A DNA stretch of 64,000 bases from the NCBI GenBank assembly GCA_024280035.1, contig JAJRQV010000014.1, positions 62,001 through 126,000 on the forward strand, read 5' to 3'. Below are positions 4,883-57,040 of the stretch, in pieces; within the stretch, counting starts at the first letter, position 1, and the number at the start of each line of letters is the position of its first letter. Made by a program: the position numbers and the translations under genes. Origin of the DNA: Campylobacterales bacterium. GTDB lineage: Bacteria > Campylobacterota > Campylobacteria > Campylobacterales > Sulfurimonadaceae. Under the pieces are notes generated by a model that made no database searches, was not told the origin of the DNA, and saw nothing but the letters and a program-made list of their open reading frames with translations.

Positions 4883-6826
4883 ATGAAGAAGTTATTAATA
4901 GTTATTACAGTTTTGTTTGTAGTAGGAGCGGGTTGGATTACGTATTATTATAATTAAGTAAAATATCAGGTTAATACACTAATTGATTATCATCCAACAC
5001 TAACCACACAAATTTTTGATAGAAATGGCGATAAGATTGCTAATATATTTAATAAAGAGCATAGATATTATGTTCATATTGAAGATATTCCCCCTCAAAT
5101 TATTGAAGCACTTATTGCCATTGAAGATACGATGTTCTTTGAACACCCAGGTGTAAATATTGATGCTATTTTTCGTGCTATTATTAAAGATGTTAAAGCA
5201 AGAAAATTAGTAGAAGGGGCATCCACCATTACGCAACAGTTAGTTAAGAATACTTTATTGACACGTGAAAAGAAGTTCTCACGTAAGTTTAAAGAGCTTC
5301 TTTTCTCGCTTAAAATAGAAGCTGAATTAAGTAAAGAAGAGATTTTAGAACGTTACTTAAATCAGATTTATTATGGTCATGGATATTATGGAATTAAAAC
5401 AGCTGCTGATGGCTATTTTCATAAAGATTTAGATGATCTATCTTTAAAAGAGATGGCAATTTTAGTGGGGCTTCCTAAGGCACCTTCTTATTACTCCCCT
5501 ACACGTCATTATGAACAGTCAATGGGTCGGGGAAACCGTGTTGTTTCACGTATGCACCAACTGGGATGGATAGATGACACTACCTATACGACAGCACTTG
5601 CTGAGGAGCCTGAAGTTTTTGATGACACTCTTACAAAAAACAGAGCCCCTTATATCGTAGATGAGGTGCTTCGTCAGCTCAAAGGTGAGTTTAAAAATGT
5701 CAAAGGAGGGGGTTATAAAATTACAACCTCTATTGATATTCGTATGCAAGAAGCAGGTCGACGAGCATTAAAAAAAGGTTATGAGCTAGCCATGGAGCGT
5801 GCTCATGAAGCTGGTGATTTTAATCAGACCTTGATGGATAAACTTAATGGTGCTTTGGTGTCGATTGAACCTAAATCAGGAGATATTTTGGCTCTTGTAG
5901 GTGGAGTTGATTATAAGGTTTCTCAATATAATCGTGCGACCCAAGGTAAACGTCAACCTGGTTCTGCCTTTAAGCCTCTTATTTATCAAGTGGCTGTTGA
6001 TCTGGGGTATTCAGGGGCTTCACAATTAGTTGATATTGCGCGAACCTATGATTATGAAGTTGATGGTGAAGAGAAGAAGTGGAAACCTAAAAATTATGGA
6101 AAAGATTATAAGGGATTTATCTCTTTACGTGAGGCTATTGTACACTCAAGAAACCTTGCTACTATTAATCTTGTAACTGATATTGGTCTGACAACAATGC
6201 GTCGAGCACTTTCACGATTTCATATTAAAAACCTTCCTCCTGACCTCTCTTTAGCATTAGGAAGTATTACCGTTTCTCCTTTAGAGTTTTCACGTTATTA
6301 CACAGTGCTTTCTAATTATGGGACAGAGGTTGAACCGATTTTAATTCGTAGTGTTGAGAATGCCTTTGGTGAAGAGGTGCATTATGATAATATTAAAGAA
6401 GAGATGACCACACCGCAACAAGCCTTTATTATGATTGATGTGATGAAAGATGTTATTAAAAAAGGTTCAGGTCGTAAAGCGCGTGTAGCAGGTATTGAAT
6501 TAGCCGGTAAAACAGGAACAACAAATAAAGGTGTAGATGCATGGTTTTGTGGTTTTTCTCCTGAGATTCAGACTATTATTTGGTATGGAAATGATGACAA
6601 TACACCAATGTTTAAAGGGGAGCAGGGCGGACGTACTGCGGCACCTGCTTTTGCAGAATATTATAAAGAGATTTTGAACACCCATCCTGAAACAAAACGT
6701 AAGTTTGATGAGCCTGAGGGTATGATATCGACTTATGTTGGTAAACAAAAAGAGTATTTTACGGAAATCTCTAAACCGCCAATGATACAAAATATTCAAG
6801 AAGATAATGAAGAATTACTTTTTTAG
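4883..6826 (+). pseudogene. mrcA: Penicillin-binding protein 1A (peptidoglycan glycosyltransferase/transpeptidase), interrupted by an in-frame TAA at 4955-4957
   Basis: A bifunctional class A PBP making peptidoglycan at the outer face of the inner membrane. The frame starts with an ATG at 4883 and a single membrane anchor (MKKLLIVITVLFVVGAGW). It then meets TAA as codon 25 and continues in the same frame to 6826. After the stop come TTQIFDRNG, the glycosyltransferase motif EDTMFFEHPG with catalytic Glu, GASTITQQLVKN, and the transpeptidase motifs PGSAFKP, SRN and KTGTT. All catalytic motifs are intact. The first ATG after the stop (5132) falls inside the glycosyltransferase motif and cannot be a working start. 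A T-to-G change would restore Glu. Such enzymes are usually important for growth, so sequence error, readthrough or a second copy must be considered. Confidence 0.85.
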
Positions 6827-6835
6827 GAGAAGATT

Positions 6836-7327
6836 ATGAAGAAGATTTTTTTAGGGCTTTTAATGGTTTCAAGTTTAATGGGCGATATATTCTCTCAAGG
6901 CAGTGCCTCTATTGGTGTTAAACTTGGTGGGGCTTCAATTGGAAATGAAGACTACACTATTGCAGGTTTAAGTGGAAACTATTTTGTTTTAGATGATTTC
7001 TCTGTTGGTCTGGCTTATGAAAAATGGTTTTCAGGCGATCCTGATATAGACAAGCTAAGTATAGAAAGTACCTACTTTATTCCTGCAAGTCAAAAGTTCC
7101 ACCCTTATATTGGGCTTTTAGCAAGACATATTTTTATTAGTGGTAGTGATAGATTTGGAAGAAGTTTTGATGATACTAATGCCTATGGGTACAGAGCAGG
7201 TTTAGCCTTTGTTCAAGATAATTTATTAATTAGTGCAGGTGTTGTTCAAGAGAAGTATGACACAAGTGAGGGAATTTTTAATGATACACAAACCTACCTT
7301 GAAGTGGTAGTAGGTTTCACTTTTTAA
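6836..7327 (+). CDS. Small outer-membrane beta-barrel protein
   Basis: A 163-residue protein with a signal peptide (MKKIFLGLLMVSSLMGDIFS) followed by short amphipathic strands rich in Gly, Tyr and Phe. It ends in VVVGFTF, with the terminal Phe that is the usual outer-membrane barrel signature. The layout resembles the OmpW/opacity-type eight-stranded porin-like family. A Shine-Dalgarno-like AGGAGA precedes the ATG. It follows the PBP gene by 9 bases and ends tail-to-tail with the HDOD gene (4-base overlap of the stops). Specific role unknown. Confidence 0.7.
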   Translation: MKKIFLGLLMVSSLMGDIFSQGSASIGVKLGGASIGNEDYTIAGLSGNYFVLDDFSVGLAYEKWFSGDPDIDKLSIESTYFIPASQKFHPYIGLLARHIFISGSDRFGRSFDDTNAYGYRAGLAFVQDNLLISAGVVQEKYDTSEGIFNDTQTYLEVVVGFTF

Positions 7328-8130: not shown

Positions 8131-8246
8131 GAATTACCTTTTATTAGATTCCTTGCAAGAAGTCTATTTTATCTTTGTAATCAAGTATGGCAAAATCAAT
8201 ATTAAATTTAAGTTAAAAGGGAGTTTAAGTAGTAAAGGTTAAAAAC

Positions 8247-9902: not shown

Positions 9903-10041
9903 AAGGATTCCTCTTAAAACTTACATGTTTTTGCATGTAGTAAACTGTGATTTCAATAGGGACATAAAATTATGTATATTGATGGCGAAATTATAGCGAA
10001 TGAAGGTGATATTCAAGGATAAAGCATGAAAATACTTGTAT

Positions 10042-10070: not shown

Positions 10071-10081
10071 TTTTTAAACGC

Positions 10082-10360: not shown

Positions 10361-10391
10361 AGCTAATCCTTAGTCTATTTTTAAAAGTGTA

Positions 10392-12080: not shown

Positions 12081-12098
12081 ACTTACCCCTGTATATCG

Positions 12099-12752: not shown

Positions 12753-13558
12753 ATGCAAACTGTAACCGAATCATTTTTATCTTTAGGAGTAAAAAACCTC
12801 TCTGATATTAGTGATAACCAACTTATTTTACTTGATATAGATTTAGATAAAAAAAACCTCTGGTTTGAATTAGCCTTGGGTAAGAATATTTCTGATGCAA
12901 GGGCAGAACTTTTTATTTTACTTAAGGGCATTAGTGCTAAAACAAATCAAGATAAAATTATTCAAAACTATAAGACCTTACAGAAATTCCGTAAGAGTGA
13001 AAGCCTAAGTGAGAAACAAGAAACACAAGATAAACAAGACCTTAGTGGGGATGTTATTATTTACTGCGATGGGGGTTGTTCTCCTAATCCTGGCGCTTCA
13101 GGTTCAGGAGTCGCGGTTTACCGTAATAATAAGGTAGATGAACTTTGGTATGGGCTATTTGAAGCTAATGGAACCAATAATACAGCTGAACTTAATGCAC
13201 TTTATCATGCCTTGCTTATTGCTGAAAAAGAGTCTGAGTCAGGCAATAAAGTTGAGATTAAATGTGACTCGATGTACTCAATTAACTGTATTAAAACCTG
13301 GGATATAGGATGGGAAAAAATGCTTGGAAGAAAAAAGGTGGAGAGATTAAAAATCTTGAGATAATTCAAAAATCTTATCATCTGTACAATACCATACGTT
13401 CTAAAATCTCACTTTCACATATTAAAGCCCATGCTGGTTTACAGGGGAACGAGTTAGCCGATAGAATGACGCATTATACGAGAAAAACGAAAGAGCCAGA
13501 ATTTAAAAAGTATCCTCACAAAATAGATGTTCAAGAAATATTGAAAATGGGTTCATAA
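12753..13558 (+). pseudogene. Ribonuclease HI-like protein with N-terminal extension, frameshifted near 13312-13320
   Basis: Would cleave the RNA of RNA/DNA hybrids. The first frame (to 13364) has a ~95-residue unrecognised N-terminal region, then the RNase H core: IIYCDGGCSPNPGASGSG with the first catalytic Asp, NNTAELNAL with the catalytic Glu, and KCDSMYSIN with the second Asp. After TWDIGW the frame is lost. The true continuation (NAWKKKGGEIKN, then HIKAHAGLQGNELADRM with the last acidic residue) is in the next frame from about 13314 to 13558. One extra G or A in the run GGGAAAAAA at 13312-13320 would restore a 268-residue protein. The stop overlaps the ycaO start. Confidence 0.8.
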
Positions 13559-19422: not shown

Positions 19423-20318
19423 CTACTCTTGGGCTAAAGCCGTGTAAAAAATGAGGTAATCACTGGTATCATTGTTAATCTCTTTGGTGCTGTTATCTGC
19501 TGGGATAATGGTAACAAAAGGTTTGTTGCTCAAGCGTGCAAAACGAAGAGGGATACCTAAACCTGTCTCAATATGCATAGCTCCTGCAAAAATAATGAGT
19601 TTCTCATTGTCTTGTAAATGTTGAGAAAGTTTAAAACTCTCTTCTGCCATTTTGAATCCCATGCCACTTGAACACGGTACATTCTCTTTTGGCAGGCTTG
19701 TAACGATTCACCCTTTTTTGGTGCATGACAGTGAGATAAAAAAGGCATAATAAGTTCTTTATGCACGCTTATATTGATGTCAAGACCTTGGTTAAACAAG
19801 AACTCTTCAGTACTCATAGCACTTAGATTTTGTTCAGATATTTTTTTTCTAGCAATTTTTGGCATATTAATACCATAGAGTTCGCCCCCTGTTTCGCGGA
19901 TAGCTTCATACATCGGTTTAAAAGAGCTATATTTATTATATTTAAGTCGTTTTTCCCACTCAATCTTTTTTAACAACTCTTTTTCATTCAGTTCTTTATG
20001 GGCAAAGGCAGTTAAGACTTTTTTGTCTTCAGGATAAAACCATTCTGAAGCAAAAAGAACTTTAACCCCAGTGTTTGAGAGCTTCTTAATAAGATTAGCA
20101 ACATGAAGGTGCATATCATCTTCATTATGATGGTCACCAATAAAGATGATTTGGTAAGGTTCTAGTCTCTGTACTAGCTCTTGTTGTGAAAGGCACTGGG
20201 CTGATTTAAGAGAGTAAACTTCGCACTGACTTTTAATAAGGTGTTTGAGGTTTGTCTCTTTGGTAGAACAGGCTGTAAAAAAAAGAAGAAAGAGACAGAA
20301 GCTTATAAATTTAAACAT
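19423..20318 (-). pseudogene. ChaN-like (heme/iron-associated) lipoprotein, frameshifted at 19650-19653
   Basis: A protein of the ChaN/DUF399 family, whose members are outer-membrane lipoproteins able to bind heme (Campylobacter ChaN is the known case). The N-terminus has a lipobox LFFTACS. The core has IIFIGDHHNEDDMHLHVANL, FASEWFYPEDK and LYGINMP, and ends with MYRVQVAWDSKW, where the frame breaks. The remaining ~75 residues (MAEESFKLSQHLQ, LIIFAGAMHIETGLGIPLR) continue in the next frame to 19423. An extra A in the AAAA run (minus strand of 19650-19653) gives the expected AWDSKMAEESF join. Two overlapping fragments therefore represent one gene. Confidence 0.82.
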
Positions 20319-22577: not shown

Positions 22578-24102
22578 TTTAATTAAACAAACCGTAATAG
22601 TTTGGAGCTTTATATTTTTAGCTTCGGTATTTTTTGGAGCACTTTATGCCGCACAGTTAGTCGGTTTTTCTCTTTTTGATGAGACTCTTCTTAATGCAGC
22701 AACCACACGTTCTTTACATATTACCTTAATGTTATATGGTCCTATTATGCTTGCGATGTCACTGCTTCCATTTGCCCTGTTTGCTAAAGATGGTTTACGT
22801 CTTGAAGCGGCAGTAAATCCTCTTAGAAATTACTTTTTATTTTGGCATCTGTTTCTGTTTATGGCAGTCGTTTCTATTACTTTAGGGCTTCAGCGTGGGC
22901 TTCCTTTTTATGATTTTACGTATGAGCTAAACTTTTTACTGGCACTCTCTGGTGTCTTTTATATTATTGCTATTTTTAAAATCATTAAACAGTATGCAGT
23001 ACAACCTCCTTGGGTTAAAGTGGCAAAAGCGCTTCTTTTTGTTGCCCCTGTTGCTCTTTTAGTATTGATGAACCCTTCGTATGGGCAGGTGGAAAAAACC
23101 CTTATTGGTCCCCATGGAGACAATACTTTAGGTATGAGTTTTACCCTTATTCCACTTTTTTATCTTTTAGTAAAACTGCATGCACAAAAAGAGTTTAAAC
23201 CAAGATGGAATCTTTTATGGATTTTACCTCTTGTTGCGTATGCAATTTCTGTAGGAACACGAATTTTTAGAGGGGATTTAGCTTATGAAGAGGAGTGGGT
23301 TTATCAATGGATGACCTTTTTATATCTACCACTGCTTATGATTTGGTGTAAAGATGCTGGTTTAAGTCTTAAAAAAACACCTTATTTAGTGGTCTCTATT
23401 TGGGCTTTTCTTTTTGTTATGATTCAAGGAAATATTCTCTTTTTTCCTGATGTTCGAGCGGCTTTTCATAAAAATGATTTAGTGATTGCTCATGCGCATG
23501 TGGCGATGGCAATCGGAATTTTATTTATGGCACTAAGTACCCTAAGTTATTTTTATAAATTACCTGAAAAGTTTATGCATTTTTGGTTGTGGGTGGTTGC
23601 TTTAATTTTTATTCCTTTAAGCTTGGCTGGTTTTGAAGAAGCAGGCTATTTTAGTGTGAATATCATTGCCATGTGGTGGTTGCGTTTTGGGGCAGGTGCC
23701 TCAGGTGTTCTTGGGCTTATTTATCTTATTTTTTCACAGTTTAAACTGCCTAGGTTTAGTGTGATTAATCTTTATCATCTTAATGGTTTTGCCTCGGATG
23801 GTCTAGGAGCTTTAGTGCTTATTCTTTTTGGTTCGGCTCTTTTTCCTCTTTTAGGTTTTCATTTTGTGCCGTATTATTATCTTGTTTTTGGATTTATGGG
23901 TTTTGTTGGTATTTTACATCTTGTAGGTGTTTATAAAGAGGGGCATCTTTTAGCACAAATGACCTCAATTGCACGTCTGATTACGGGTACGATTTTTCTT
24001 TCTCTTTCATGGTTAGGAAGCATTGATGCACTTGGTTTTTTAGTTGGGGCGTATGATATAGTTTATGCTCTTATCTACTTAGTTTTTAAAGAAAAGTTTT
24101 GA
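22561..24102 (+). CDS. Heme-copper oxidase subunit I-like multi-pass membrane protein (divergent)
   Basis: A 513-residue protein with about 12-14 predicted membrane segments. TTRSLHITLMLYGPIM near residue 50 resembles the helix II low-spin heme ligand region of cbb3/NOR-type subunit I (RTxHTNxxxxG). VIAHAHVAMAIGILFMAL near residue 310 resembles the H-x-H helix. The full set of six conserved heme and CuB histidines is not evident, so redox catalysis is uncertain. No subunit II or cytochrome c gene is adjacent. It overlaps the ABC ATPase upstream and the porin downstream, so it belongs to this operon. It may be an oxidase/NO-reductase relative adapted to another role. Confidence 0.6.
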   Translation: MEKFNNLIKQTVIVWSFIFLASVFFGALYAAQLVGFSLFDETLLNAATTRSLHITLMLYGPIMLAMSLLPFALFAKDGLRLEAAVNPLRNYFLFWHLFLFMAVVSITLGLQRGLPFYDFTYELNFLLALSGVFYIIAIFKIIKQYAVQPPWVKVAKALLFVAPVALLVLMNPSYGQVEKTLIGPHGDNTLGMSFTLIPLFYLLVKLHAQKEFKPRWNLLWILPLVAYAISVGTRIFRGDLAYEEEWVYQWMTFLYLPLLMIWCKDAGLSLKKTPYLVVSIWAFLFVMIQGNILFFPDVRAAFHKNDLVIAHAHVAMAIGILFMALSTLSYFYKLPEKFMHFWLWVVALIFIPLSLAGFEEAGYFSVNIIAMWWLRFGAGASGVLGLIYLIFSQFKLPRFSVINLYHLNGFASDGLGALVLILFGSALFPLLGFHFVPYYYLVFGFMGFVGILHLVGVYKEGHLLAQMTSIARLITGTIFLSLSWLGSIDALGFLVGAYDIVYALIYLVFKEKF

Positions 24103-25091
24103 AACGATTCTTCCTTTTTCTCCTCCTTTTTAGTAGCCTAAGTTGTGCCCAAGAGGAGTATGTTCTTGGGGAGGGTTATCAAGTGGGTGAACTGCCGATA
24201 TACCTCGGGGGATACTTCTCTGTGGATTACCGTAAAAAGGATGAAGAAGATAGGTATCGTGTGGATAATATCTCTTTTATGTCTTATGGTGGAAATAACA
24301 CTCTCTCTTATATGGTAGAACTTGAGTTTAAAGAGTTTTATATTGAGACACATAATGAAACCTATGGGCAGACAACCAGTCGAGACCATAGACTTTATAT
24401 TGAACGCCTGTATGTAGACTATACGATGAGTGATGAAATGACCTTATGTCTTGGAAAGTATAACTCTCCCATTGGTTATTGGAACCTAATGCCTATTAAT
24501 GTACTTCGTGCAACAACGTCCAGTCCTATGAGTACGAATGTAATTTATCCTGAATTTACAACAGGGGCAGACCTAAGGTACAGCTCTTTTAAAGAAAATG
24601 AACTTACTATTAACCTTATGCTTCAAGATAATACGCCTATTGATGATGAGTATAATAATTATGATATAGATAAACATTATGGTCTTGGAATATCATATGG
24701 AGATGGGGAGTATGAAGTTAAGGTAAATGGGGGGTATTTTAGTAAAAGAGACCGTCATACTGGTGTTGATGACTTTTTTTATGGGCTTTTGTCTGCAAAG
24801 TATGAACAAGAGTTATATCAGATCTTAGCTGAAGCAGGGATGCAAGAGTCTAAGAATCATGATAAAAATTATGCGGCTTATCTTCAAGGTTTATACCGTT
24901 TTACCCCTAAACATATCGCTATTTTAAGACTTGAGTCTTATAAAGATGCGTTGTTAAATGAAAATGATAATATGGCAATTTTTGGCTACACCTACAGACC
25001 TCTTTTTCCTGTCGCACTAAAACTAGAATATCAGCAGCATACACGGGCGAATACAAATCAGTTTATTTTCTCGTTTTCGGTGCTGTTTTGA
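24099..25091 (+). CDS. Outer-membrane porin-like protein
   Basis: A 330-residue protein from a TTG overlapping the previous stop. It has a signal peptide (MKRFFLFLLLFSSLSCAQ), then strongly alternating strands such as YIERLYVDYTMSDEMTLCLG and GKYNSPIGYWN, and a terminal FSFSVLF with C-terminal Phe. NVIYPEFTTGADLRY and the repeated strand pattern fit a 16-18-stranded barrel of the phosphate-selective or general porin type. The Cys in LSCAQ could be a lipobox-like position, but the barrel C-terminus argues for an integral protein. The stop overlaps the next ATG. Confidence 0.7.
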   Translation: MKRFFLFLLLFSSLSCAQEEYVLGEGYQVGELPIYLGGYFSVDYRKKDEEDRYRVDNISFMSYGGNNTLSYMVELEFKEFYIETHNETYGQTTSRDHRLYIERLYVDYTMSDEMTLCLGKYNSPIGYWNLMPINVLRATTSSPMSTNVIYPEFTTGADLRYSSFKENELTINLMLQDNTPIDDEYNNYDIDKHYGLGISYGDGEYEVKVNGGYFSKRDRHTGVDDFFYGLLSAKYEQELYQILAEAGMQESKNHDKNYAAYLQGLYRFTPKHIAILRLESYKDALLNENDNMAIFGYTYRPLFPVALKLEYQQHTRANTNQFIFSFSVLF

Positions 25092-25498
25092 TGAGAAAAG
25101 GCGTACTTCTTCTTTTGTTAACGCTCTGTCTTAATGCACAAGAATATGCAGTTGTTTCTAATAAAATCTTAGACGATATGAACCTAATGCAAATTCGTGC
25201 TATTTTTTTAAAGAAGTTAGTCCATGCCAAAGGTTTGCATATTGTGCCTATAAACCTACCATCAAACAGTGTCACGCGAAAGAGTTTTGAAGTTCATGTT
25301 TTAAAAATGCAAACGGCACAACTTAAATCCTACTGGACGAGTCAACACTATTTGGGTAAACGTCCACCTCTTGTTATGAAGAGCCCACAAAGTGCTTTGG
25401 TTTTTGTTAAAAAGGTACAAGGCGCACTCTCTTATGTTAAACTACAAGATATTGATGCATCCGTAAAAGTCTTGTATCGATGGAAAGATAAGGAGTAG
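25091..25498 (+). CDS. Small PstS-like periplasmic binding-domain protein
   Basis: A 135-residue secreted protein (signal RKGVLLLLLTLCLNAQ). The body has AVVSNKILDDMNLMQIRAIF, IVPINLPSNSVTRKSFEVHV and ALVFVKKVQGALSYV. This is the pattern of the short phosphate-ABC-transporter-type substrate-binding domain proteins found beside porins and sensor kinases in many proteobacteria. It is far shorter than true PstS (~320 residues) and has no transporter genes next to it. The gene ends two bases before the kinase gene, so it probably hands a periplasmic signal to that kinase. Confidence 0.75.
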   Translation: MRKGVLLLLLTLCLNAQEYAVVSNKILDDMNLMQIRAIFLKKLVHAKGLHIVPINLPSNSVTRKSFEVHVLKMQTAQLKSYWTSQHYLGKRPPLVMKSPQSALVFVKKVQGALSYVKLQDIDASVKVLYRWKDKE

Positions 25499-25500
25499 AG

Positions 25501-27198
25501 GTGTTTGAGTTTATAAGAAATTCACTTGCTAATCGTCTTTTATTTGCATTTTTAGCCATTGGTGCTCTGTCTTTTGGAATTTTTCTTATTTATACACTGA
25601 TTTTAAGTGAAACAAAAATTGTTAACAAACTTGTTTTAGAACAGCATCACCACATTTAACAGCTTTCAAAAACTATTAATAATCATCTTAATACCTTAAG
25701 TAAAGAGGTCTCTTTCTTGGCACGTTTAGATGTAATGGACGATATTATTAGTGAAGACATTGATAAAAGAATCTCACGTCTTTTAGAACAAAAAGAGAAG
25801 GATTATAATCTTGATTTAGATTTTTTAGTCATTGATGTAAAGGCAGATATTATTGCCTCATCAAATCGGAATAGACGCTTTAAAGGCTCTGCTGAATTTT
25901 ATGATTTTAATGCTTCAAAGGGAAGCTTTTTTTATCAGAATAAATTTTATATTTATGCACAAGTTTTTGCAAGTTTTGATGCGAATAAGAGCTTAGGTTA
26001 TCTTCTTTTAGAATATGATTTAAAAAACTTAGAGCAATTTTTAAATGAGAGTAAAAATGGATTTGCTTATTTGAAAGAGCAGAGTACAGAGAAGATTATT
26101 GGGACAAAACCTGAGATTAAGTTAGGTATTAAAAGTCAAAAAGATAGCATTAGTATAGGTGAATATCTTGTTGTGCACCAGCAGATGTCGGGTGCTTTAC
26201 AGCAGTGGTATATTTTTTATGCGGTAAAAAAAGATATTGCTTTAAGCTTTTTTTATAATTTTATTCGTTTTATGCTCTACCTCTCTCCTTTTATATTACT
26301 TTTAATCGTTTTTATTGCTTATAAATTTTCGTACTATATTGTTAAACCTATTGAGGAATTAACAGAGGTGACAGATGAGATAGTTATCTCTAAAGATTAC
26401 TCAAAATATCTTGATATGGCATCAACAGATGAGATAGGAAAACTGGCTAAATCGTTTAATACCCTCTTAACAACTATGGATAAAACACTTTTTGCTTCGG
26501 ATGCTAAAAGCTCTTTTATCTCAAATATGTCACATGAATTAAAGACCCCTTTAAATGCTATTATTGGTTTTTCACAATATCTTATTACGTATGAAAAACT
26601 AAGCGATGAACAGTTAGATATTGTCTCTAATATAGAGGCTTCTTCCCAATACCTCTTAGAAATGATTCATGGAATCTTAGATATTGCTAAGATTGAATCT
26701 GGAAAAATGGATGTTATTGTGAGCGAGTGTGATTGTTTGACTCTTTTACAAGAGTGCTTTATTATGGTAGAGCCTTTAGCAGAAGATAAGGGATTGAGAT
26801 TTGAGTTTAAAGATGAAAAGTACATAAAAAGTGTATTAAAAACAGATGTGAAAATATTTAAACAGATTGTTTTAAATCTTCTTTCTAATGCGATAAAATA
26901 TACGCAAAAGGGGAGTGTTATTTTAGAAGTTAGCAGTGAAAAAGGTTTGTTAGTTCGCGTAAAAGATACCGGTATTGGTATTGAAGAAAAAGAGATGGGA
27001 AAACTTTTTAAAGAGTTTTCTCGAATTGATAATACTCTAAGTTCTAAACAAAAAGGGACAGGCTTGGGGCTTTCTTTGAGTAAAAAGTTGGCACATCTTA
27101 TTGGGGGGGATATTAAACTCTACAGTGAGGGTACATACAGAGGTGTTTGTGCAGAGTTTAGTATAGGGCAAGTTCCTCTAAGGCAGGAGAAGAGATGA
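25501..27198 (+). pseudogene. Membrane sensor histidine kinase, interrupted by an in-frame TAA at 25657-25659
   Basis: A 566-codon frame from GTG 25501. TM1 is LLFAFLAIGALSFGIFLIY; the TAA is codon 53, just after the membrane segment, in a helix (LEQHHHI-stop-QLSKTINNHL). The periplasmic domain follows, then TM2 (FILLLIVFIAYKF) with a HAMP segment (VKPIEELTEV), the H box SNMSHELKTPLNAII, the N box LLSNAIKYT, and G boxes DTGIGIEEKE and GTGLGLSLSKKL. All kinase motifs are intact. It overlaps the response regulator gene (ATGA). TAA to GAA or CAA would restore it. Translation from later ATGs would lose the first membrane anchor. Confidence 0.82.
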
Positions 27199-27857
27199 AT
27201 ATCTTAGTAGTAGAAGATGATAGAGCTAATGCGGAGTTAATGTTTAAACTTTTAAAGCAGGAAAAATACAGTGTTGACGTGGCTAAAAATGTTGCACAAG
27301 CAAGAGAGGCGATAGATAAGGCATTTTATCATCTCATTATCTTAGACTGGAATCTTCCTGATGGAAGTGGGTATGAACTTCTGCTTGAAACAAGAGAGCT
27401 TCTTATTGAGTCTCAAGTGTTGATGCTTTCAGCTAATGCAGAGATTGAGTATCGGGTTAAAGCCTTAGATGCAGGTGCAGATGATTATCTTTGTAAACCT
27501 TATGCTTTAGTCGAACTTCTTGCTCGAGTGAAATCTCTTTTACGACGTAGCGCAACGAACAAGAGTGCCTTTGTAGAGATAGAAAACATTAGTATTGACC
27601 GTCATAATAATCTTGTGAAAATAGATGAAAAAGAGCTTTCATTAACCCTTGCAGAGTATGAAATTTTACTTGCATTAGCGTCAAATCCTAATAAAACCTT
27701 TACTAAGTTTGAACTGCTTAATCTTTCGCATAATGAGTATGCCTCATCAGCAATGAGTAATATTATAGAAGTGCATATTAAAAATATTCGTAAAAAACTT
27801 CAAAATAAAGAGATTATAAAAACTGTAAGAAGTGTGGGATATAAGATATCTTCATAA
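27195..27857 (+). CDS. OmpR/PhoB-family response regulator
   Basis: A 220-residue regulator. The receiver domain has the acidic pair VVEDD at residues 5-8, phosphoacceptor Asp near 53 in LIILDWNLPDGSGY, and the Lys in DDYLCKPYA near 103. The C-terminal winged helix (LTLAEYEILLALASNPNKTF, IIEVHIKNIRKKL, IKTVRSVGYKI) is the OmpR DNA-binding type. It overlaps the upstream kinase gene, so they form one two-component system. The targets may be the porin/oxidase-like genes upstream; this is not shown by any binding site I can identify. Confidence 0.9.
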   Translation: MNILVVEDDRANAELMFKLLKQEKYSVDVAKNVAQAREAIDKAFYHLIILDWNLPDGSGYELLLETRELLIESQVLMLSANAEIEYRVKALDAGADDYLCKPYALVELLARVKSLLRRSATNKSAFVEIENISIDRHNNLVKIDEKELSLTLAEYEILLALASNPNKTFTKFELLNLSHNEYASSAMSNIIEVHIKNIRKKLQNKEIIKTVRSVGYKISS

Positions 27858-29411: not shown

Positions 29412-30634
29412 GACAAATAATCTTTCTACTCTTTGCGCTTTATTTAAGTGCAAAAGAATCCCTTCCTCCTCTTGAGACAAAACTCTTTAATTTTATAAAA
29501 AATACACAAATCAAAGAGCATGAGCGTCAGCGTTACAGTGGAACCTGGCCAACCTATCCTAAATATTCAGGTGTACGAAAAGAGATTCCTGAGTCTAACT
29601 CTTTTATGACCTTGCAGACTATTATTCTTTTAGAAGAAGTCAATAAGGAGTATAAACTTTAAGGTATTGATGAGGTTCTATCTTTAGCAGATGAGCAGAT
29701 TCAAAAATATGTTTTAGATGCAGATAAAACGGATGAGGTTAAAGGAACAATCTCTTTTTGGCCTCTGATTCAAACAGATGAGGGAGAATGGATACGTTCT
29801 TTTGATACACAATGGTACAACACTTCTATGCGAATTTTAAATGTTGGAAATGATTTTGACAGCTCTTCACAGGCCTTTTCTTGGTTTTTTATGCAAAAAG
29901 AAAACAGAGAATTTATGGACTCTTTTGTTCGTAGTGTTGGAGATTATGTAGACAGTAATCGAAGTGTAGAACATCCTCTTAATGAAACATGGAAGCAGAA
30001 AAATACAGGTGCTTTTTTAACCTGGGCAGAGACAGAAGCCCCCGAACAACCCATAAATAGAATTATGGACTTAGTGAATGATGTGGATTGTGTGGTTAAT
30101 CTAAATATTTTAAGTGCCTTATCGTATTATGAAAACAGTCTTGATAGCTTACCTCTTAAAACAGCTAAGGCAAGGGATGCTTCATGTCAATTAATACACC
30201 AAGTGATTGTAAATAATGAAGAAGAAAAGTGTGCAACATGGTACACACGAAAATCGCATTTTTATTTAGCCTTTACCAAAGCCTATAAGGCAGATACCTT
30301 CTGCATAGAAGCAGATAAAAACTTAGTATATGAGAGGGCTAAAAACAGAGCAAAATATCTGCTGGCACACCCTAAGATGCAGGCTTATACTGAAATAGCT
30401 GAACATATCATTATATTAAAAAGTCTTCGAAAAAGTAGAACCTACTTTTTTAATAACTTTATTAATAACTTAGAAACTGAATTAAAAAAAGGCATTATTG
30501 AGAAAAAGAGTTATGCCTACCTTCCCTCAAAACACTCTCTTTTTGGAGGTCAAGCCTTTGGTCTGTTTCATTTTGACTGGTACGGACGTGCAAATGCCAC
30601 AGCTCTTGCTTTAAGAGCCTTAAGCATGAGATGA
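29408..30634 (+). pseudogene. Uncharacterised secreted protein (408 codons), interrupted by an in-frame TAA at 29660-29662
   Basis: From GTG 29408: a signal peptide (RQIIFLLFALYLSAKE), then PPLETKLFNFIKNT, TWPTYPKYSG and TMTLQTIILLEEV-like helices. TAA follows NKEYKL, and the frame continues with GIDEVLSLADEQIQKYVLDA through WYNTSMRILNVGNDFDSSS to ALALRALSMR. Several helical repeats with NRIMDLVNDVDCVVNLNILS and a run of Trp/Tyr recall alpha/alpha-toroid enzymes or TPR-less repeats, but no family is recognised. Reading continues for 324 residues beyond the stop without another. TAA to GAA gives YKLEGIDEVL. It overlaps the YceI-like gene, so the two may act together. Confidence 0.7.
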
Positions 30635-35420: not shown

Positions 35421-36713
35421 ATGAATAAAGTTGAACTTCTTTCTCCTGCGGGAAACCTTGAAAAACTTAAAATTGCACTGGACTTTGGTGCTGACGCTGT
35501 ATATGGTGGGGTCTCTCACTTCTCTTTACGAATTCGTTCAGGTAAAGAGTTCACTATGGAGAGTTTTAAAGAGGGGATAGATTATGCCCATGAACGTGGA
35601 AAAAAAGTGTATGCAACCATTAATGGATTTCCTTTTAATTCGCAACTGAACCTTTTAAGAACACATATTAAAAATATTGCAGACCTTGGTGTTGATGCTA
35701 TTATTGTTGCTACACCTGGGGTACTTAAACTTGCCCATGAAATTGCACCAGATATTGATCTGCATTTGTCTACCCAAGCTAATGTAATGAATGTCTTAGA
35801 TGCTCAGATTTATCATGATATGGGGGCAAAACGTATTATTACCGCGCGTGAGATTTCACTTAAAGACCTGCAAGAGATTAAAAAAGAGCTTCCTGATTTA
35901 GAGCTTGAAGTTTTTGTTCATGGTTCAATGTGTTTTGCTTACTCAGGACGCTGTCTTATCTCAACCTTGCAAAGTGGACGTGTTCCTAACCGTGGTTCAT
36001 GTGCAAATGATTGTCGTTTTCCTTATGAATTGTATGCTGCTAATCCAGAGACAGGAACCCTGTTTAGACTTGAAGAAGATCCTGGGATTGGAACCTATAT
36101 TATGAATTCTAAAGATCTTAATCTTGCCTCACACATTAAAGAGATTTTAGACTCAGGTTGTGTGGATTCTGTAAAAATTGAAGGGCGTACAAAAACATCA
36201 TATTATGCTGCTACTACAGCAAAAGCTTATCGTATGGCAATTGATGATTATTATAAAGAAGATTATCAACCTGAACGTTATCAAGATGAACTTAATTCTA
36301 TGCAAAATCGTGGTTTTACTGATGCATATTTAATAAATCGTCCTTTTGAAAAACATGATGGACAGAGTTTAGATTTTACTATGCAGATGGGGAGTCATCA
36401 AGTCACAGGGATGGCAACATTAGAGGGTGACTTTTATATGTGTAAGTTCACAACTAAAGTGGGTGATAAATTAGAGATTATGGCACCTGTTGATGCCCCA
36501 ATAGAAGAAGTAGATAATGAATATGGTTCTCTTGTTTTTCAAGAGGGTAAAGCCTATCTTATCTTTAAAAAACTTGAGGCACAAAATAAGAAAATTTGGG
36601 AAGCGGTTCATAGTGGAAATGTAAACCCTATTAAACTTCCTTCAACCTTACCTCCGTATACTTTTTTTAGAATCCCTGCTACGGACGACATTAATCAAGC
36701 ACCACCAAGATAA
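35421..36713 (+). CDS. U32-family peptidase / tRNA hydroxylation protein (TrhP-like)
   Basis: A 430-residue protein of the U32 family, whose better-understood members (TrhP, RlhA) form 5-hydroxyuridine/cytidine in RNA and contain an iron-sulphur site. It shows VELLSPAGNLEKLKIALDFG, GADAVYGGVSHFSLR, then LEVFVHGSMCFAYSGRCLIS and GSCANDCRFPYEL with the conserved cysteine array, and SVKIEGRTKTSYYAATTAKA. The length and LSPAGN start match the PrtC/TrhP subgroup, including HP0169. The old name collagenase should not be taken literally. The DUF429 gene starts within 2 bases of its stop. Confidence 0.85.
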   Translation: MNKVELLSPAGNLEKLKIALDFGADAVYGGVSHFSLRIRSGKEFTMESFKEGIDYAHERGKKVYATINGFPFNSQLNLLRTHIKNIADLGVDAIIVATPGVLKLAHEIAPDIDLHLSTQANVMNVLDAQIYHDMGAKRIITAREISLKDLQEIKKELPDLELEVFVHGSMCFAYSGRCLISTLQSGRVPNRGSCANDCRFPYELYAANPETGTLFRLEEDPGIGTYIMNSKDLNLASHIKEILDSGCVDSVKIEGRTKTSYYAATTAKAYRMAIDDYYKEDYQPERYQDELNSMQNRGFTDAYLINRPFEKHDGQSLDFTMQMGSHQVTGMATLEGDFYMCKFTTKVGDKLEIMAPVDAPIEEVDNEYGSLVFQEGKAYLIFKKLEAQNKKIWEAVHSGNVNPIKLPSTLPPYTFFRIPATDDINQAPPR

Positions 36714-36714: not shown

Positions 36715-37386
36715 GTTTTCATTGGTCTTGACCTTGCGTGGGGAGAGAAAAATGCTTCGGGTTTTGCTGTTTTAGATGAGAAGGGAAAACTTCTTGAACA
36801 TGACCTGCTTTTTGATTTAAAAGAGATTAAAAAAAGAATTGATTTTTACCAAGATGATTTTGATGTTTATTTAGGGGTTGATGCTCCTTTATATATTGAA
36901 AATGAGAGTGGTAACCGCCAAATTGAAAAAGACTTTTGTAAGGATTTTTCTCACTATAAGATAAGTATGCTCCCTGTAAATAGAAATCTTATGACAAAAT
37001 ATACTAAGGTGCCCCGAGGCGAAGCTCTACGTCTTAGTTTAGAGATAAAAAACATATATGAAGTGTACCCTCATTCCACAATAGCTGTGCTTTTTAATAA
37101 TTATAAGATTCTTCCTTACAAACGAAAAACAGGAAGAAAAAAAATAGATATTATTCAAGCTTTAGTTCGCTATCAAGGTTTTTTAAAATCCGTTGTTTTA
37201 GCAGATACCTTTTTAGATTATAATCTCAAAACGTATAGCTCTAAACAGTTGAAAGATTATGAAGATGTTTTAGATGCAGTAACGGCTGCATATACTCTTC
37301 TATATTGTCAAAACTGTGCAGAAAAATGTAAAAAATACAGAGATAAAGAGGCTGTTTTTATAACACCTATATACAACAGGTCTTAA
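36715..37386 (+). pseudogene. DUF429 protein, no canonical start codon visible
   Basis: A protein frame of 223 codons matching DUF429. It opens with FIGLDLAWGEKNASGFAVLD and has DVYLGVDAPLYIENESGNRQ and PRGEALRLSLEIKN, with the family's nuclease-like Asp pattern. The frame is open back to 36622 but contains no ATG, GTG or TTG before the conserved part; the first ATG is at 36967, well inside the domain. A GTT at 36715 sits exactly where a start is expected. T to G there gives GTG and a normal protein starting MFIGLDLAWG. Function of DUF429 is unproven. Confidence 0.7.
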
Positions 37387-39824: not shown

Positions 39825-40238
39825 ATGATGGATACAGGTTGGATTACCATTCAAGAATATTCTGAACTCACAGGTTTAAGCCCTGATGCAATTGATGACT
39901 TAATGGAACGGGGTAAGTTGGAGTGTAAAACTGAATTGGGAAAGGTTTATATTGATCCTTCTCGTGGTATGCAAGCTATAGTCCCTTCTGAAATAGGTGA
40001 GCTTACTGAATCGGGGGGCTCAAGCATTAATGTAGGCCCTCAGTTTATTGAAAAAACCATTGGTACTATTATTAATCTTCATGAAAAAGTATTGGTGGCT
40101 AAAGATGAAACAATTGAGTCGGTAAAAAATGAGAATTTGTTTTTAAAAGAGGCACTTTCATCTTTACAAGACCTGTATGAAGAAGATAGAAACACAATTG
40201 ACACCCTAACAAAACAGCTGAATCTTTCTCAAGATTAG
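39825..40238 (+). CDS. DUF3972 protein
   Basis: A 137-residue protein. The first ~45 residues (WITIQEYSELTGLSPDAIDDLMERGKLECK) form an excisionase/MerR-like winged helix-turn-helix; the second half is a coiled coil (ETIESVKNENLFLKEALSSL). This is the DUF3972 arrangement, a family almost confined to Campylobacterota. Its role is not established; a DNA-binding or scaffold role is suggested by the fold. ATG 39828 has a better spaced AAGG than ATG 39825. Confidence 0.75.
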   Translation: MMDTGWITIQEYSELTGLSPDAIDDLMERGKLECKTELGKVYIDPSRGMQAIVPSEIGELTESGGSSINVGPQFIEKTIGTIINLHEKVLVAKDETIESVKNENLFLKEALSSLQDLYEEDRNTIDTLTKQLNLSQD

Positions 40239-42037: not shown

Positions 42038-43415
42038 TTAAAGCATTTTGAATATAATTGATATCAACATATTTATCTATATGCATAGCAAAATCGTTAA
42101 TTGCAGTTGATTTAAATGTTTTAAACTCATATCCCTTATACTCCTCATTTATAGCTGAAAATATTTTATAGCGTAAGTCATCATTGTCAAAAAGCCCATG
42201 CACAAAGGTGCCAAAAAGATTTTTTTTCTGTTTCGCTCGTTTTTTGCTTATGCCGTTATGAATTTCATACCCATTGACCATGATGCCAAAAAGATTGTAG
42301 CAGTCTTTGGTAACAATTTTTTCCTCTTGAAAAATGACCTCTCCTTTGAACCGTGCAAAGGCTTTAACTTCTTTAACATCAGACTCTATGGCTAAGGGGT
42401 CAAGAATTTTTTAAAACATCATCTCATAACCACCACAAATGGCAATAATTACTTTCTTTTTAGACTTAAGTGCTTTTTCAAAGCCTCTTTGTCTTAACCA
42501 GTTTAAATCATCAATGACTCTTTTTGTTCCAGGAAGGATGATAGCGTGACAGTTTATAAGTTCACTAGGGTTTGAGATAAAGACAAGTTCAATTTCAGGA
42601 TCTGTAATAAGAGGCTCAAAGTCGGTGAAATTACTAATATGAGGGAGCCGTATGACGCCTACCCTTATAATAGCCTTTTGTGTATCTTGAATGTAATTCA
42701 TAATAGAGGCACTGTCCTCAAATCCAAGGTTAAATGGCTTAAAGGGTACGACACCAAGAACTTTAATACCAAAACGCTCTTGTATAATCTCTACTCCCTC
42801 ATCAAAAAGAGTCATATCTCCTTGAAACTTATTGACAATAACCCCAATAACATTTTGTCTTAGTTTTTCAGGAAGAAGTTGATAAACCCCATAAATTGAA
42901 GCAAATACCCCGCCTCTTTGAATGTCTGCAACAAAGACAATTTTAGTGTTGAATTCATCAGCGATATATATATTAGAGAGGTCTCTGTCCATAAGGTTTA
43001 GCTCAACAGGACTTCCTGCTCCCTCAGCTACAATACACTCATAGGTCTCTTGAAGTTTTTTAAAGGCGAGTGAAGCAAAAGGTTTTAGAGTATTGATATC
43101 TCTGTAGTATGACCATACGTCTTTATTACCGATACTTTTGCCATTGACAATAATATGTGCCTTTGACTTTCCTCCAGACTTAAGCAGAACAGGATTCATA
43201 TAAGGGGATGTTTTTAGTCCTATTGCCTCTGCAGCAAAGTACTGAGGAATTGCAATTTCACCTCCCTCATCCGTAACTTGAGAATTATTAGAAACATTTT
43301 GAGCCTTGTAAGGAGCTACTTTGATACCCCGGTGATGTAACAGATAGGTAATAGCAAAAGCAAGGGTTTATTTTCCTGCATCAGAACTGGTACCAAAGAT
43401 ACTAAGTGATCGCAT
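42030..43415 (-). pseudogene. cbiP: Adenosylcobyric acid synthase (glutamine-hydrolysing), interrupted by two in-frame TAA codons
   Basis: Amidates the corrin side chains b, d, e and g. The 461-codon frame from ATG 43415 begins RSLSIFGTSSDAGK, then TAA at 43370-43368 exactly where the P-loop needs Ser/Thr, and continues TLAFAITYLLHHRGIKVAPY, KAQNVSNNS, DEGGEIAIPQYFAAEA, MNPVLLKSGGKSKAHI. The GATase domain with the Cys nucleophile (IIAICGGYEMMF) is followed by a second TAA (42413-42411), then KILDPLAIESDV and GYEIHNG to the end, with the His of GTFVHGLFDND. No other frame change is needed. Both stops must be bypassed to make an active enzyme. Confidence 0.9.
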
Positions 43416-45185: not shown

Positions 45186-45611
45186 TTATAAAAGGCACTT
45201 TTGCATAATTTTTTTCCAGTCAAGGTCAAAGTGTTTTTTTACATAATCTTGATGATGAGGAACACCACATTTAGAGCAGTCTTGATGTATTTTTTCGCCA
45301 TACACACCCTGTCTTCCATCTTTTGACTTGATATCACAAAGGCTGTACTGGGTTTTAGTGTTTATCTTTTGAATGCCCTCGTCATCAAAGCGAAAATTAG
45401 GACAGGCGCAAAGATAACAGTTGAGTTTTTCCATATCATGACATTTTTTATTTTTGGCATACAGGGGGCAAAAATCATATTCCTCTTTTTTCATATTTTC
45501 AAAATCAAAATATTATATTATCTGCTCATGGCTGTAATTCTTGCTTAATAATTTAGTAACAATAACTTTATGCTTAAGAGCATGTTCTTCAAACCAACGC
45601 TTATATCCCAT
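45186..45611 (-). pseudogene. Cysteine-rich small-domain protein of cobalamin clusters, interrupted by an in-frame TAA at 45515-45513
   Basis: From ATG 45611 the frame reads MGYKRWFEEHALKHKVIVTK, LLSKNYSHEQII, then TAA, then YFDFENMKKEEYDFCP and an array of about ten Cys including CHDMEKLNCYLCACPNF and DCSKCGVPHH. This is the Cys-rich small domain (metal-binding-like) often found in archaeal and epsilonproteobacterial cobalamin loci; the activity is unknown. The ATG after the stop (45494) would still give the Cys-rich part, 102 residues. TAA to GAA gives IIEYFDFENM, as commonly seen in family members, and a 141-residue protein. Confidence 0.75.
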
Positions 45612-45685: not shown

Positions 45686-46365
45686 ATGCATATAGAACCC
45701 GGAATGGTAGATGCTGCGAAAATAGGTCTTTCGTATGCTACTGCAACAGCGGCTCTACTAGGGGTTGCAAAACTTTCATACGACAATATTAGAGATAACA
45801 ATATTGTCTCTTTTTTTATGAAGGCAATGGTTTCAACACTTTTAGTATTTACATTTTTTGAGGTTTTTCCTCATTATTCTGTTGGTGTTTCTGAAGTACA
45901 TTTAATTATGGGCTCAACACTTTTTTTACTGTTCGGAGTTGCTCCAGCCAGTATTGGTCTAGCAGTAGGGCTTTTCATTCAAGGGCTTTTCTTTGCACCT
46001 TTGATCTTCCTCAATTAGGAATGAATTTAACGTCTTTACTTGTGCCTCTTATGGGTATCGCTTATATGGCAAAGAAAATTATTCCTTCACAGACTGTATA
46101 TACGGATTTACAATACTCTCAAGTGCTAAAACTATCTTTAGCGTATCAAGGTGGAATTGTTAGTTGGGTAGCTTTTTGGGCAATTTACGGGCAAGGGTTT
46201 GGTGCTGAAAACATGGCTTCAATTCTTAGTTTTGGGTCGGCTTACATGTTAGTTGTTATTATTGAACCTTTTGCAGACTTGGCAGTTTTAGCCTTTGCTA
46301 AAGTATTAAAAGATACATTTTCGAAAACAAATCTTTTTGAAAAAAGACTTTACCAAAAAGTATAA
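45686..46365 (+). pseudogene. cbiM: Cobalt ECF-transporter substrate-specific component CbiM, frameshifted at 46000-46002
   Basis: The membrane component that captures cobalt for ECF uptake. The first frame starts MHIEPGMVDAAK with the His-2 metal ligand and runs through VGVSEVHLIMGSTLFLLFG and GLAVGLFIQGLFFAP. It is then lost at TTT (46000-46002). The second frame (to 46365) continues MNLTSLLVPLMG, VSWVAFWAIYGQGFGAENMA and VVIIEPFADLAVLAFAK. One extra T gives FAPFDLPQLGMNLT, the expected continuation of the family, and 226 residues. Neither half could function alone. No cbiN, cbiQ or cbiO is adjacent. Confidence 0.88.
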
Positions 46366-48544: not shown

Positions 48545-48545
48545 G

Positions 48546-50535: not shown

Positions 50536-50536
50536 A

Positions 50537-53157: not shown

Positions 53158-56100
53158 AAGATTTAAAAGTTTTTCGTGGGGGTCCTCTTGCTTGGATGGC
53201 ATCACATCCTGTAGCTGCAAACCTTCTTATGATCGTTGCCTTAGTGGGGGGAATCTTAATGATGGGGTATCTTCGTCAAGAAGTATATCCTGATTTTGAG
53301 CATGATGAGATTCGTGTTAGTGTCTCTTATCCAGGTGCCAGTCCTCAAGAGATAGAAGATGGGGTTATACTCCCTGTAGAAGAAGCTATGAGTGGTGTAG
53401 ATGGTATTAAAAAGTTTACTTCCACTGCTTCAGAAGGCAGTGGAAATGTAAATATTGAAGCAAGAAAAGGTCATGACCTCCAGCTTTTGCAAAATGATGT
53501 ACAAAATGCTATTAATCGTATTCGAACCTTTCCTTCTGATATTGAACGTCCCAAGGTAACGCTTAGAAGTTATGAGAGACAGACCATGTCTTTGGTCCTT
53601 TATGGTGAGAAGGACAGACTTATATTATATAAACTGGCTACGAGGTTTAAACATGCGCTTTTACAACACTCAGAGATTTCAAAGGTTGACTTGTATGGTG
53701 TATCTGCCTTACAGTACAGTATCGAGATAGATGAAGAGAAACTAAGAAAATATTCTATATCTCTTGAAGAAGTTTCAAGACGTATTAATACAGACAGTCT
53801 TGACTTACCTGCAGGAAGTATTAAAACCAGTAATCAAGAAATTCTTGTTCGTTTACATCAACGTAGGGAGTCTATTGAGTCTTTTAGTAAAGTACCTATA
53901 ATCACGACAAAAACAGGAAGTATTATTCGGCTGGAAGATATGGCTAGTATTCGTGAGAACTTTGAAAATGAAGATTATTTTGCTTTGTATAATGGAAAAC
54001 CCGCCCTTCGTATAGCTATTCGTAATCCTCAAGAAAGCTCTCCCATTTCTATCTCTAAAATTGTAAAACAAGAGATACAAAACTATAAGGCGACACTTCC
54101 TTCAGAAATTGGTATAAATATACTTACGAATGAGGCAGAAGTTTTTGAAGAGAGGGTCAGTTTACTCTTAAAAAACAGTGTAATGGGATTACTTATTGTC
54201 CTTTTTTCGCTCTCTCTATTTTTAGAAATACGCCTTGCTTTTTGGGTGATGATGGGTATTCCTATCTCTTTTATGGGAGCATTTTTCCTTTTTCCTTTTG
54301 TTGATGTTTCTATTAGTATGGTTTCTCTTTTTGCATTTATAATTGCCTTGGGTATTGTGGTTGATGATGCGATTATTATGGGTGAAAATATTTATCATTA
54401 TAGAGAACGGGGCCTTTCTCCCATGGATGCAGCTATTAAAGGGGCAAAAGAGATGGCAGTGCCTATCACCTTTGCGATTCTTACTAATATTGTTGCTTTT
54501 ATGCCAATTTATTTTATTCCGGGGACAACGGGTAAAATTTTTCAGGTTATTCCAGTTGTTGTAATTACGATATTTTTGGTATCTTGGATTGAGTCTGTTT
54601 TTATACTTCCGGCACATTTAGCTAAGGTTAAAAAAGGGGTTGGTAACCCTTTTATTGCATATATACATATTTATCAGCAGAAATTTAGCCGTGCATTTAG
54701 GGCTTGGATACGTTTCTCTTTTGCTCCATTTTTAAACCTTGTGCTTAAACACAGATACCTTTTGATGCTCATTTCTATCTCTTTACTTGTGCTTACGATT
54801 AGTTACGCAGCAAGTGGGCGTATGGGTATGCAGATTTTTCCACGAACCCCTTCGTCTTATGCTCAGGCTATTATTAAGATGCCTTTTGGAACCCCTGCAG
54901 ATGTTACGAAAAAGATGGTTCAAAAAATTCTTGATTCTGCGCATAAGGTTGAAGATGAGAAAGGTATACGTGAGTACATAAAAGGAAGTTATGCTCGAAT
55001 AGGTCGAGAAGGTACACATGAAGGGCTTATTCGTATCTACCTTCCTCCTGCATCTGTTCGAGATAAGGTCTTGTCTAATGCTGACTTTGTTCAACTCTGG
55101 CGTAAAAATACAGGTGAAATTCCAGGGGCAGACTTACTTCAGTTCTCAGCTTATGCTGGGGGTCCGGGTCATGGTTCTGCACTCTCCTTAGAGATTAGTC
55201 ATACGGACTTAAATGTTTTAAAAGAAGCCAGTAAGTATATTGCAGATGAACTGCATGCTTATGCTGAGTTGTACGATATTAATGATGGTTTTGAAGAGGG
55301 GAAATCACAAATAAACTTTAGCCTTAAACCTCTTGCATATTCGCTTGGTTTTGATGCAAGAAGTATCTCTAGAGAAGTTCGTGCTGCCTTTTATGGTTCC
55401 GAGTCTCAAAGAATTTTAGTAGGTAATAATGAGGTCAAGGTAATGGTTAGACTACCTAAGCCACGAAGAGAATCTCTTGAGACCCTTTACCGTTTACGAC
55501 TTTTTAGTAATGATGGAAAAGAAGTTGCCCTGATGGATCTTATTAATTTACAATGGGGACATGCTTATACACAGATACAAAGAGTTAATGGCAAACGGGT
55601 GATTACGATAGAAGCTAATATTCGTCCTCGAAGTAAGGCATTAGAAATAATGAATGACATGCAGGTCTCTTTTTTACCCGAATCGAAAGAGCGTTTTGTT
55701 GGTTTGAGTTACAGTTTTGAGGGAGACCAAACAGAAATCAGAGAAAGTCTTGGGGTACTAAAAACAACTTTTATTATGGCTATTTTTGCAATTTATGCGC
55801 TTTTGGCTATTCCTTTTAGAAGTTATCTTCAGCCTCTTATTGTGATGGCAGGGATTCCTTTTGGGATTATTGGTGCACTTATTGGACATTTGATTATGGG
55901 TTACAGTTTAAGTGTGGTAAGTATGTTTGGTATTGTCGCCTTAAGTGGGATTGTTGTTAATGATGCACTTATTTTAGTGGACTTTGCTAACCGTTACCGA
56001 AAAAAGGTGAATGCCTCTGCCTTAAAAACCGTAAAAGAAGCAGCCATTCAACGTTTCAGACCTATCTTACTTACAACGGTTACGACCTTTGGTGGGCTGA

Positions 56101-56261
56101 TACCTATTATGTTTGAAACCTCAAAACAGGCAAAATTTCTTATTCCAATGGCAATATCTATAGGCTTTGGTGTTCTTTTTGCAACCTTTGTTACGCTTTT
56201 AATAGTACCTGCTTTGTATTTGATTATTGAAGATGTGAAGAAGTTTTTAGAGGGGAAGTAG
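53154..56261 (+). CDS. RND efflux pump, AcrB/HAE1-like
   Basis: A 1035-residue pump with twelve membrane segments. It shows ASHPVAANLLMIVALVGGIL (TM1), the porter loops with YPGASPQEIEDGVILPVEEA, and TM4 ALGIVVDDAIIMGENI with the proton-relay Asp pair. The second half begins RYLLMLISISLLVLTISYA, and the matching segment ALSGIVVNDALILVDFANRY lies near 940. It is full length. Upstream TonB/ExbBD and outer genes suggest an envelope-export block; drug, metal or siderophore substrate cannot be told. Confidence 0.92.
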   Translation: MKDLKVFRGGPLAWMASHPVAANLLMIVALVGGILMMGYLRQEVYPDFEHDEIRVSVSYPGASPQEIEDGVILPVEEAMSGVDGIKKFTSTASEGSGNVNIEARKGHDLQLLQNDVQNAINRIRTFPSDIERPKVTLRSYERQTMSLVLYGEKDRLILYKLATRFKHALLQHSEISKVDLYGVSALQYSIEIDEEKLRKYSISLEEVSRRINTDSLDLPAGSIKTSNQEILVRLHQRRESIESFSKVPIITTKTGSIIRLEDMASIRENFENEDYFALYNGKPALRIAIRNPQESSPISISKIVKQEIQNYKATLPSEIGINILTNEAEVFEERVSLLLKNSVMGLLIVLFSLSLFLEIRLAFWVMMGIPISFMGAFFLFPFVDVSISMVSLFAFIIALGIVVDDAIIMGENIYHYRERGLSPMDAAIKGAKEMAVPITFAILTNIVAFMPIYFIPGTTGKIFQVIPVVVITIFLVSWIESVFILPAHLAKVKKGVGNPFIAYIHIYQQKFSRAFRAWIRFSFAPFLNLVLKHRYLLMLISISLLVLTISYAASGRMGMQIFPRTPSSYAQAIIKMPFGTPADVTKKMVQKILDSAHKVEDEKGIREYIKGSYARIGREGTHEGLIRIYLPPASVRDKVLSNADFVQLWRKNTGEIPGADLLQFSAYAGGPGHGSALSLEISHTDLNVLKEASKYIADELHAYAELYDINDGFEEGKSQINFSLKPLAYSLGFDARSISREVRAAFYGSESQRILVGNNEVKVMVRLPKPRRESLETLYRLRLFSNDGKEVALMDLINLQWGHAYTQIQRVNGKRVITIEANIRPRSKALEIMNDMQVSFLPESKERFVGLSYSFEGDQTEIRESLGVLKTTFIMAIFAIYALLAIPFRSYLQPLIVMAGIPFGIIGALIGHLIMGYSLSVVSMFGIVALSGIVVNDALILVDFANRYRKKVNASALKTVKEAAIQRFRPILLTTVTTFGGLIPIMFETSKQAKFLIPMAISIGFGVLFATFVTLLIVPALYLIIEDVKKFLEGK

Positions 56262-56293
56262 GAGTGGAAGAAAGTATTTTAAAGAGACAAGCA

Positions 56294-57040
56294 CTATTGT
56301 GCTCGTTTGTCTCTTTGATGTAAATTGCTTTCTTGAAGTTCTTTGGAAGGCTTATGCATTGCTTTTGCTTTTTTAGCACTGTGCATACCGTGCCCTTTTC
56401 TTGGTTTTCTACCATAAGTGTCAATAACATGACTTCGATAGACATTAACACTGATAAAAAAGATAATAAGTAAAGCAGCAAAAGGATACGCGAGTATCTT
56501 TTTCATCTTACTTGCATCAATATGTTCCATCCGTCGGTATAAGATGTATAAACTCCATACAACGGCTAACCATCTAAACATATGAAAGATACCTAACCAC
56601 GCATCTCCACGTTTTGCCATAGGTTCAATATCGATATGCATACCAAATCCCCAAGCCATTCCCTCAACAATACGAGCGGCATTTCCGGTAAAGAAGTATT
56701 CCAGAGCATGTCCCATAGAAGCCAAGATAAACAGAGGTGCAAAAGCATAACCCAGAGTGTAAAAAACAGTATTAAAGTCTTTTTTCAAAATCTTTGAGGC
56801 TATCCACATGCCAACAACTGCTGAGGTAACTGTAAATAAGGTGGCATATAAAAAAGCAAAAAGACCTACCGGGTCAAGTGAACCAAAGTTTATAAAAGAT
56901 TGAAAAAATACAGCTGTTTTATTCCAAATCATCGCATCGCCTATATTACTACGTCCGAGACCATGATGAAATGCCATGGACATAGGAATGGCAGCAAGAA
57001 TAAGAATATAAACCCATACTTCTGCTTTTAGAGTTTTAAA
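56294..57040 (-). pseudogene. Multi-pass membrane protein beside the polyferredoxin gene; start codon missing
   Basis: About 248 codons when read from 57040. It has five or so membrane segments: VWVYILILAAIPMSMAFHHG, GLFAFLYATLFTVTSAVVGM, FNTVFYTLGYAFAPLFILAS, HMFRWLAVVWSLYIL and ILAYPFAALLIIFFISV, and a His/Lys-rich tail. The reading frame is open into the first membrane segment, but the only upstream codons available are TTT AAA ACT CTA AAA, with no ATG/GTG/TTG. A T to G at 57038 makes a TTG start (MKTLKAEVWV) and at the same time a stop for the overlapping polyferredoxin. Function unknown. Confidence 0.5.

Follow-up and report, generated by a model that had tools for sequence, protein, structure and literature searches.

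The window, by which we mean the whole stretch of 64,000 nucleotides analysed here, is contig C17:62001-126000 of the draft genome G000 (2,511,769 bases, 107 contigs), and it raises the question of whether its broken genes were broken by mutation in a living lineage or in the making of the sequence. The original prediction counted eight gene-breaking substitutions, all of which could be G:C>T:A, and ascribed them either to a mutator or to oxidative or amplification damage in the library. For comparison we used five genus relatives (G001-G005), which pieces of the window match at approximately 67-84% DNA identity; the relatives found via cobyric acid synthase are by label mostly Sulfurimonas sp. 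metagenome assemblies (best 80 of 136). Relatives' reading frames were aligned to 239,229 bases of G000 and to 552,173 bases of G001-G005. The stop codons and the doubtful start considered in the window are as follows.

4955-4957, + strand: TAA in a gene of the PBP1A family, where genus relatives have Gln; G:C>A:T
25657-25659, + strand: TAA in a Cache/HAMP histidine kinase frame
29660-29662, + strand: TAA; Pro in 3/3 relatives; no Pfam family found
36715-36717, + strand: GTT where a DUF429 gene presumably starts
40236-40238, + strand: TAG in a DUF3972 gene; Glu in 10/10 relatives; G:C>T:A
42411-42413, - strand: TAA in the cobyric acid synthase gene (CbiP/CobQ), where relatives have Glu; G:C>T:A
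43368-43370, - strand: TAA in the P-loop of cobyric acid synthase; Ser in relatives; G:C>T:A
45513-45515, - strand: TAA in a gene for a small Cys-rich protein; Asp/Glu in relatives; G:C>T:A if derived from GAA

All eight triplets that had been predicted are present in the sequence, and the claim that they share one base-pair change holds for three of them. The support is firm at 42411, where 72/80 aligned sequences have Glu (GAA or GAG), and at 43368, where the proposed C>A change in TCA agrees with Ser (TCN) in 85/85 aligned sequences. It is weak at 45513, since the 43 relatives have Asp in 21 and Glu in 16, and G>T fits only if the G000 lineage had GAA. At 4955 the proposed GAA ancestor gives way to Gln (CAA or CAG), found in 4/4 genus relatives and 6/12 relatives overall, with Glu in 2 distant ones; the change is thus a C>T transition. 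At 29660, also read as former GAA, the relatives' codon is CCN, from which no single step leads to TAA. The supposed missing start at 57038 is instead a frameshift inside one 4Fe-4S gene, since the two flanking ORFs align to residues 1-191 and 188-428 of a single CDS of Sulfurovum mangrovi. Upstream of 36715 the frame runs back to a stop at 36622 without any ATG, GTG or TTG in between, and no genus relative aligned to this gene, just as no close relative was available for 25657 among the loci compared. One further break, GAG>TAG at 40236, had escaped the original prediction. As a side observation, the part of the window from about 24100 to 27850, which includes the sensor kinase, lies outside all genus-relative DNA matches listed.

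Substitutions are not the only lesions. Six frameshifts were found in G000: in rpoB, in mutY and at 13316, 19650 and 45994 of the window by a stricter filter, and at 57031-57043 by a separate alignment. The four in the window are listed below.

13316-13322, + strand: frameshift in the poly-A tract of a gene that we take to be RNase H-like; G001 and G005 span the site
19650-19653, - strand: conserved gene frameshifted within a short poly-A tract; G001, G002, G004 and G005 span the site
45988-46003, + strand: 1-base deletion that divides what is a single gene in relatives (15 genomes) into ORFs 45686-46018 and 46021-46365
57031-57043, - strand: frameshift joining ORF 57028-57780 to ORF 56294-57040, which together correspond to a single 4Fe-4S protein of Sulfurovum mangrovi

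The stricter filter returned six rows, all in G000, with that in L243 near 5167 (39 residues) left uncounted, and it found no frameshift in 552 kb of G001-G005. A laxer filter gives candidates in all six genomes.

Stops were called in the same aligned sequence. Early inventories were flooded by shadow frames, and the final ones were resolved by best frame; for several stops the ancestral codon was deduced from a synonymous one, as where relatives have GAG and G000 has TAA. The filter lists 22 stops in G000, and removal of three that lie upstream of the EF-Tu start or in shadow frames (L180:7361, 7502 and 7511) leaves 19 in-frame stops in 239 kb. The same filter lists 21 in the 552,173 control bases, 20 of which we judged by eye to be of the upstream-of-start or shadow-frame type, and L163:10051 of G003 alone resembles a true internal stop. 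When at least three supporting genomes are required, 13 stops in G000 (239 kb) stand against 5 in the controls (552 kb). Internal stops in G000 are thus well above those of its close relatives, as assembly error would have it. G000 has roughly one visible gene break per 10 kb, in the form of G:C substitutions to A or T and, less often, of 1-base indels; such breaks are nearly absent from the five genus relatives. By base-pair change, the 19 stops are distributed as follows.

G:C>T:A (11): L160:2259, L160:10277, L178:5988, L179:18477, L180:6530, L182:598, L182:5243, window 40236, 42413, 43370 and 45515
G:C>A:T (4): L179:12247, L182:11230, L243:9480 and window 4955
No assigned change (4): L160:16514, L172:5028, L242:7604 and window 29660

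None of the 15 assignable stops arose at an A:T pair. Under equal rates, the codon usage of 52,011 codons in the alignments (an earlier 156-kb set) would divide the stop-making single changes into T>A 39.7%, C>A 26.9%, T>G 15.5%, C>T 11.9% and C>G 6.0%, and against this the 11/15 C>A changes are in excess (binomial p=2.4e-4). Among C>A and C>T changes only, C>A is expected to make up 69% and makes up 73%. The bias is therefore toward changes at G:C pairs, and transversions are not specially enriched per opportunity. The predicted excess of G:C>T:A among nonsense changes is thus borne out, whereas its uniformity is not: 4/15 stops are G:C>A:T, and both classes are about equally frequent per opportunity.

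Missense changes, which would carry the mark of a lasting mutator, give no clear signal. At columns invariant in relatives, C>A accounts for 69/447 changes in G000, compared with 54/283 in G001, 18/148 in G002, 17/194 in G003, 11/139 in G004 and 14/144 in G005, so that G000 does not rise above G001. At columns invariant in at least six genomes, a set that takes in loci of unproven orthology and is one of several cut-offs tried, C>A is 17/70 in G000 and 7/93 in pooled controls (Fisher p=0.0036, or 0.010 once the two stops are left out); at a laxer cut of four genomes, C>A in G001 is again higher than in G000. An early missense excess (29/147 single-class changes, against 16/165 in pooled controls) had included loci without orthologues, and it vanished against G001 with more data.

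The repair genes made the mutator branch of the original prediction a fair guess, since mutM gave no match in 21/21 genomes and mutY is frameshifted. Eight of 14 control genomes do match mutM, and mutY is matched in 20/21 genomes. In G000 (L160:8500-8620, contig C77) the mutY frame breaks past the catalytic and Fe-S part, with A9 where A8 keeps the frame, whereas the gene is open in G001-G005. In the five genus relatives the mutY linker contains runs of 6 to 8 A, so slippage there, real or technical, is likely, and the frameshift in G000 could itself be an indel error. The start of the same contig (L242:1-141) holds 81 bases in tandem repeat, possibly an assembly end effect.

What decides between mutation and error is the state of the core genes. 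The one full-length EF-Tu copy of G000 contains an internal TAA, and so do the genes identified by family as SecY, L16 and an RnpA; rpoB carries a 1-base deletion that is not in a homopolymer. EF-Tu, SecY, L16, RnpA and RpoB are established as essential in model bacteria. Since rpsC, which adjoins L16, has a single match, the operon containing L16 is probably single. Some of the stops could be mild in effect: that of L16 removes only the last part of the protein, and those of PBP1A and MetH fall close to the N-terminus, so that a start codon further on might suffice. Over 36,851 aligned bases, core-rich contigs show 4 stops, and the rest show 15 over 202,378 (two-sided binomial p=0.52), and this equal density gives no sign of selection. 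Essential genes are not spared, which is what assembly error predicts, and the intact core that a mutator would keep is not seen. Two contig ends inside rpoB (L180:1-362 of C65 and L181:1-362 of C101) share a 362-base overlap that contains 2 mismatches, one of which puts Asp in place of an invariant Gly of RpoB, so that the assembly is inconsistent with itself. A second translation-GTPase-like stretch with a TAA inside is found in L231 (C80:7639-8319 of G000).

Core genes are thus broken by like lesions at like density, and such a sequence cannot belong to a living cell. For this reason we consider it very probable, as far as sequence comparison can tell, that the stops and frameshifts are consensus errors of the draft genome of a Sulfurimonas-like bacterium and not mutations of a living lineage. 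Such errors account for all that was observed. Where depth was low, calls based on a handful of molecules or on damaged ones would have entered the assembly; oxidation of guanine may have produced the G>T and C>A changes, and deamination of cytosine or ordinary miscalls the C>T and G>A changes. Oxidation of guanine during shearing is known to give C:G>A:T errors (PMC5521083), and internal-stop counts track assembly error and vary with coverage (Cooley and Wright 2024, PMC11017572). The artefact branch of the original prediction fits this account, with 8-oxoguanine as the putative chemistry, while its mutator branch fails on core genes broken at the same density. One point against consensus errors is that the contigs are long (159,811 bases for C17), which argues against very low depth. 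The lack of a clear missense signal and the possibly mild effect of the stops in L16, PBP1A and MetH also count against them.

One biological alternative is a genuine mutator, in which slippage in the poly-A tract of mutY (A8 to A9) cuts off the C-terminal domain of MutY and, with no MutM, unrepaired 8-oxoguanine breaks genes by G:C>T:A. The repair genes described above and the G:C>T:A excess among the stops speak for it, and so do two precedents: Campylobacter jejuni is without MutM and acquires mainly G:C>T:A changes upon MutY loss (PMC6467930), and tract slippage acts as the switch of mutY in H. pylori (PMC8875331). We nevertheless hold a mutator to be very unlikely, for core genes are hit as often as others, 4/15 stops are G:C>A:T, C>A missense is not in excess over G001, and the mutY insertion resembles the other 1-base indels of the assembly. 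Frameshifts are in excess too, which MutY loss is not known to cause. A population form of this idea, in which a G:C>T:A mutator arises in nature through slippage in the mutY poly-A tract of a family lacking MutM and most of the sampled DNA stems from cells so mutation-laden that lethal alleles reach the consensus, seems to us slightly less credible again. A mutator, if nonetheless real, would make G000 a rare example from nature of phase-variable mutY outside gastric and enteric Campylobacterota.

A mixture, in which a real mutY-off or relaxed lineage has some true pseudogenes and consensus errors overlie them, is also very unlikely, if marginally better placed than a pure mutator. It could draw on the cobyric acid synthase gene, which has two stops and two further breaks nearby (45513 and 45994) at a density above average, as well as on the slippage-prone kind of tract in mutY; however, the clustering amounts to four events, and the data are explained without it. 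If genes were simply decaying into pseudogenes while the genome shrank, stops and frameshifts would occur together, as they do, yet the genome of G000 is similar in size to those of its relatives and core genes are hit without depletion, which makes decay highly improbable. We give almost no credence to suppression or recoding of TAA and TAG as sense codons for Glu. Although 9/19 stops fall at Glu or Glu/Asp positions of relatives, TAA terminates 73/120 genes at conserved C-termini, like in relatives, a stop anticodon occurs in 0/33 tRNAs found (a set that lacks some expected tRNAs), and Ser, Gln and Trp positions as well as the frameshifts would be left unexplained.

If consensus error is the right reading, the gene breaks of G000 are not biology, and it would be false to read from them that PBP1A, cobalamin synthesis, MutY or others have been lost. 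Before a mutator is proposed from one draft genome, a cheap check is to see whether breaks are as dense in core genes as elsewhere.

Three known systems can be set beside G000. MutY-deficient Campylobacter and Helicobacter mutators (PMC6467930, PMC8875331) are alike in that no MutM is found, an A-tract of mutY is frameshifted and G:C>T:A appears among the breaks; they differ in being viable strains that keep their core genes, whereas in the sequence of G000 these are broken. Guanine-oxidation artefacts of sequencing (PMC5521083; see also PMC12390751) share the C:G>A:T excess, but are low-frequency errors of reads, while the changes in G000 sit in the consensus, where C>T matches C>A in frequency per opportunity. 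The spurious pseudogenes that assembly error creates (PMC11017572) differ from those of G000, which show a visible bias of G:C to A or T; in both, internal stops and frameshifts are in excess and missing in relatives, and the importance of the gene is irrelevant.
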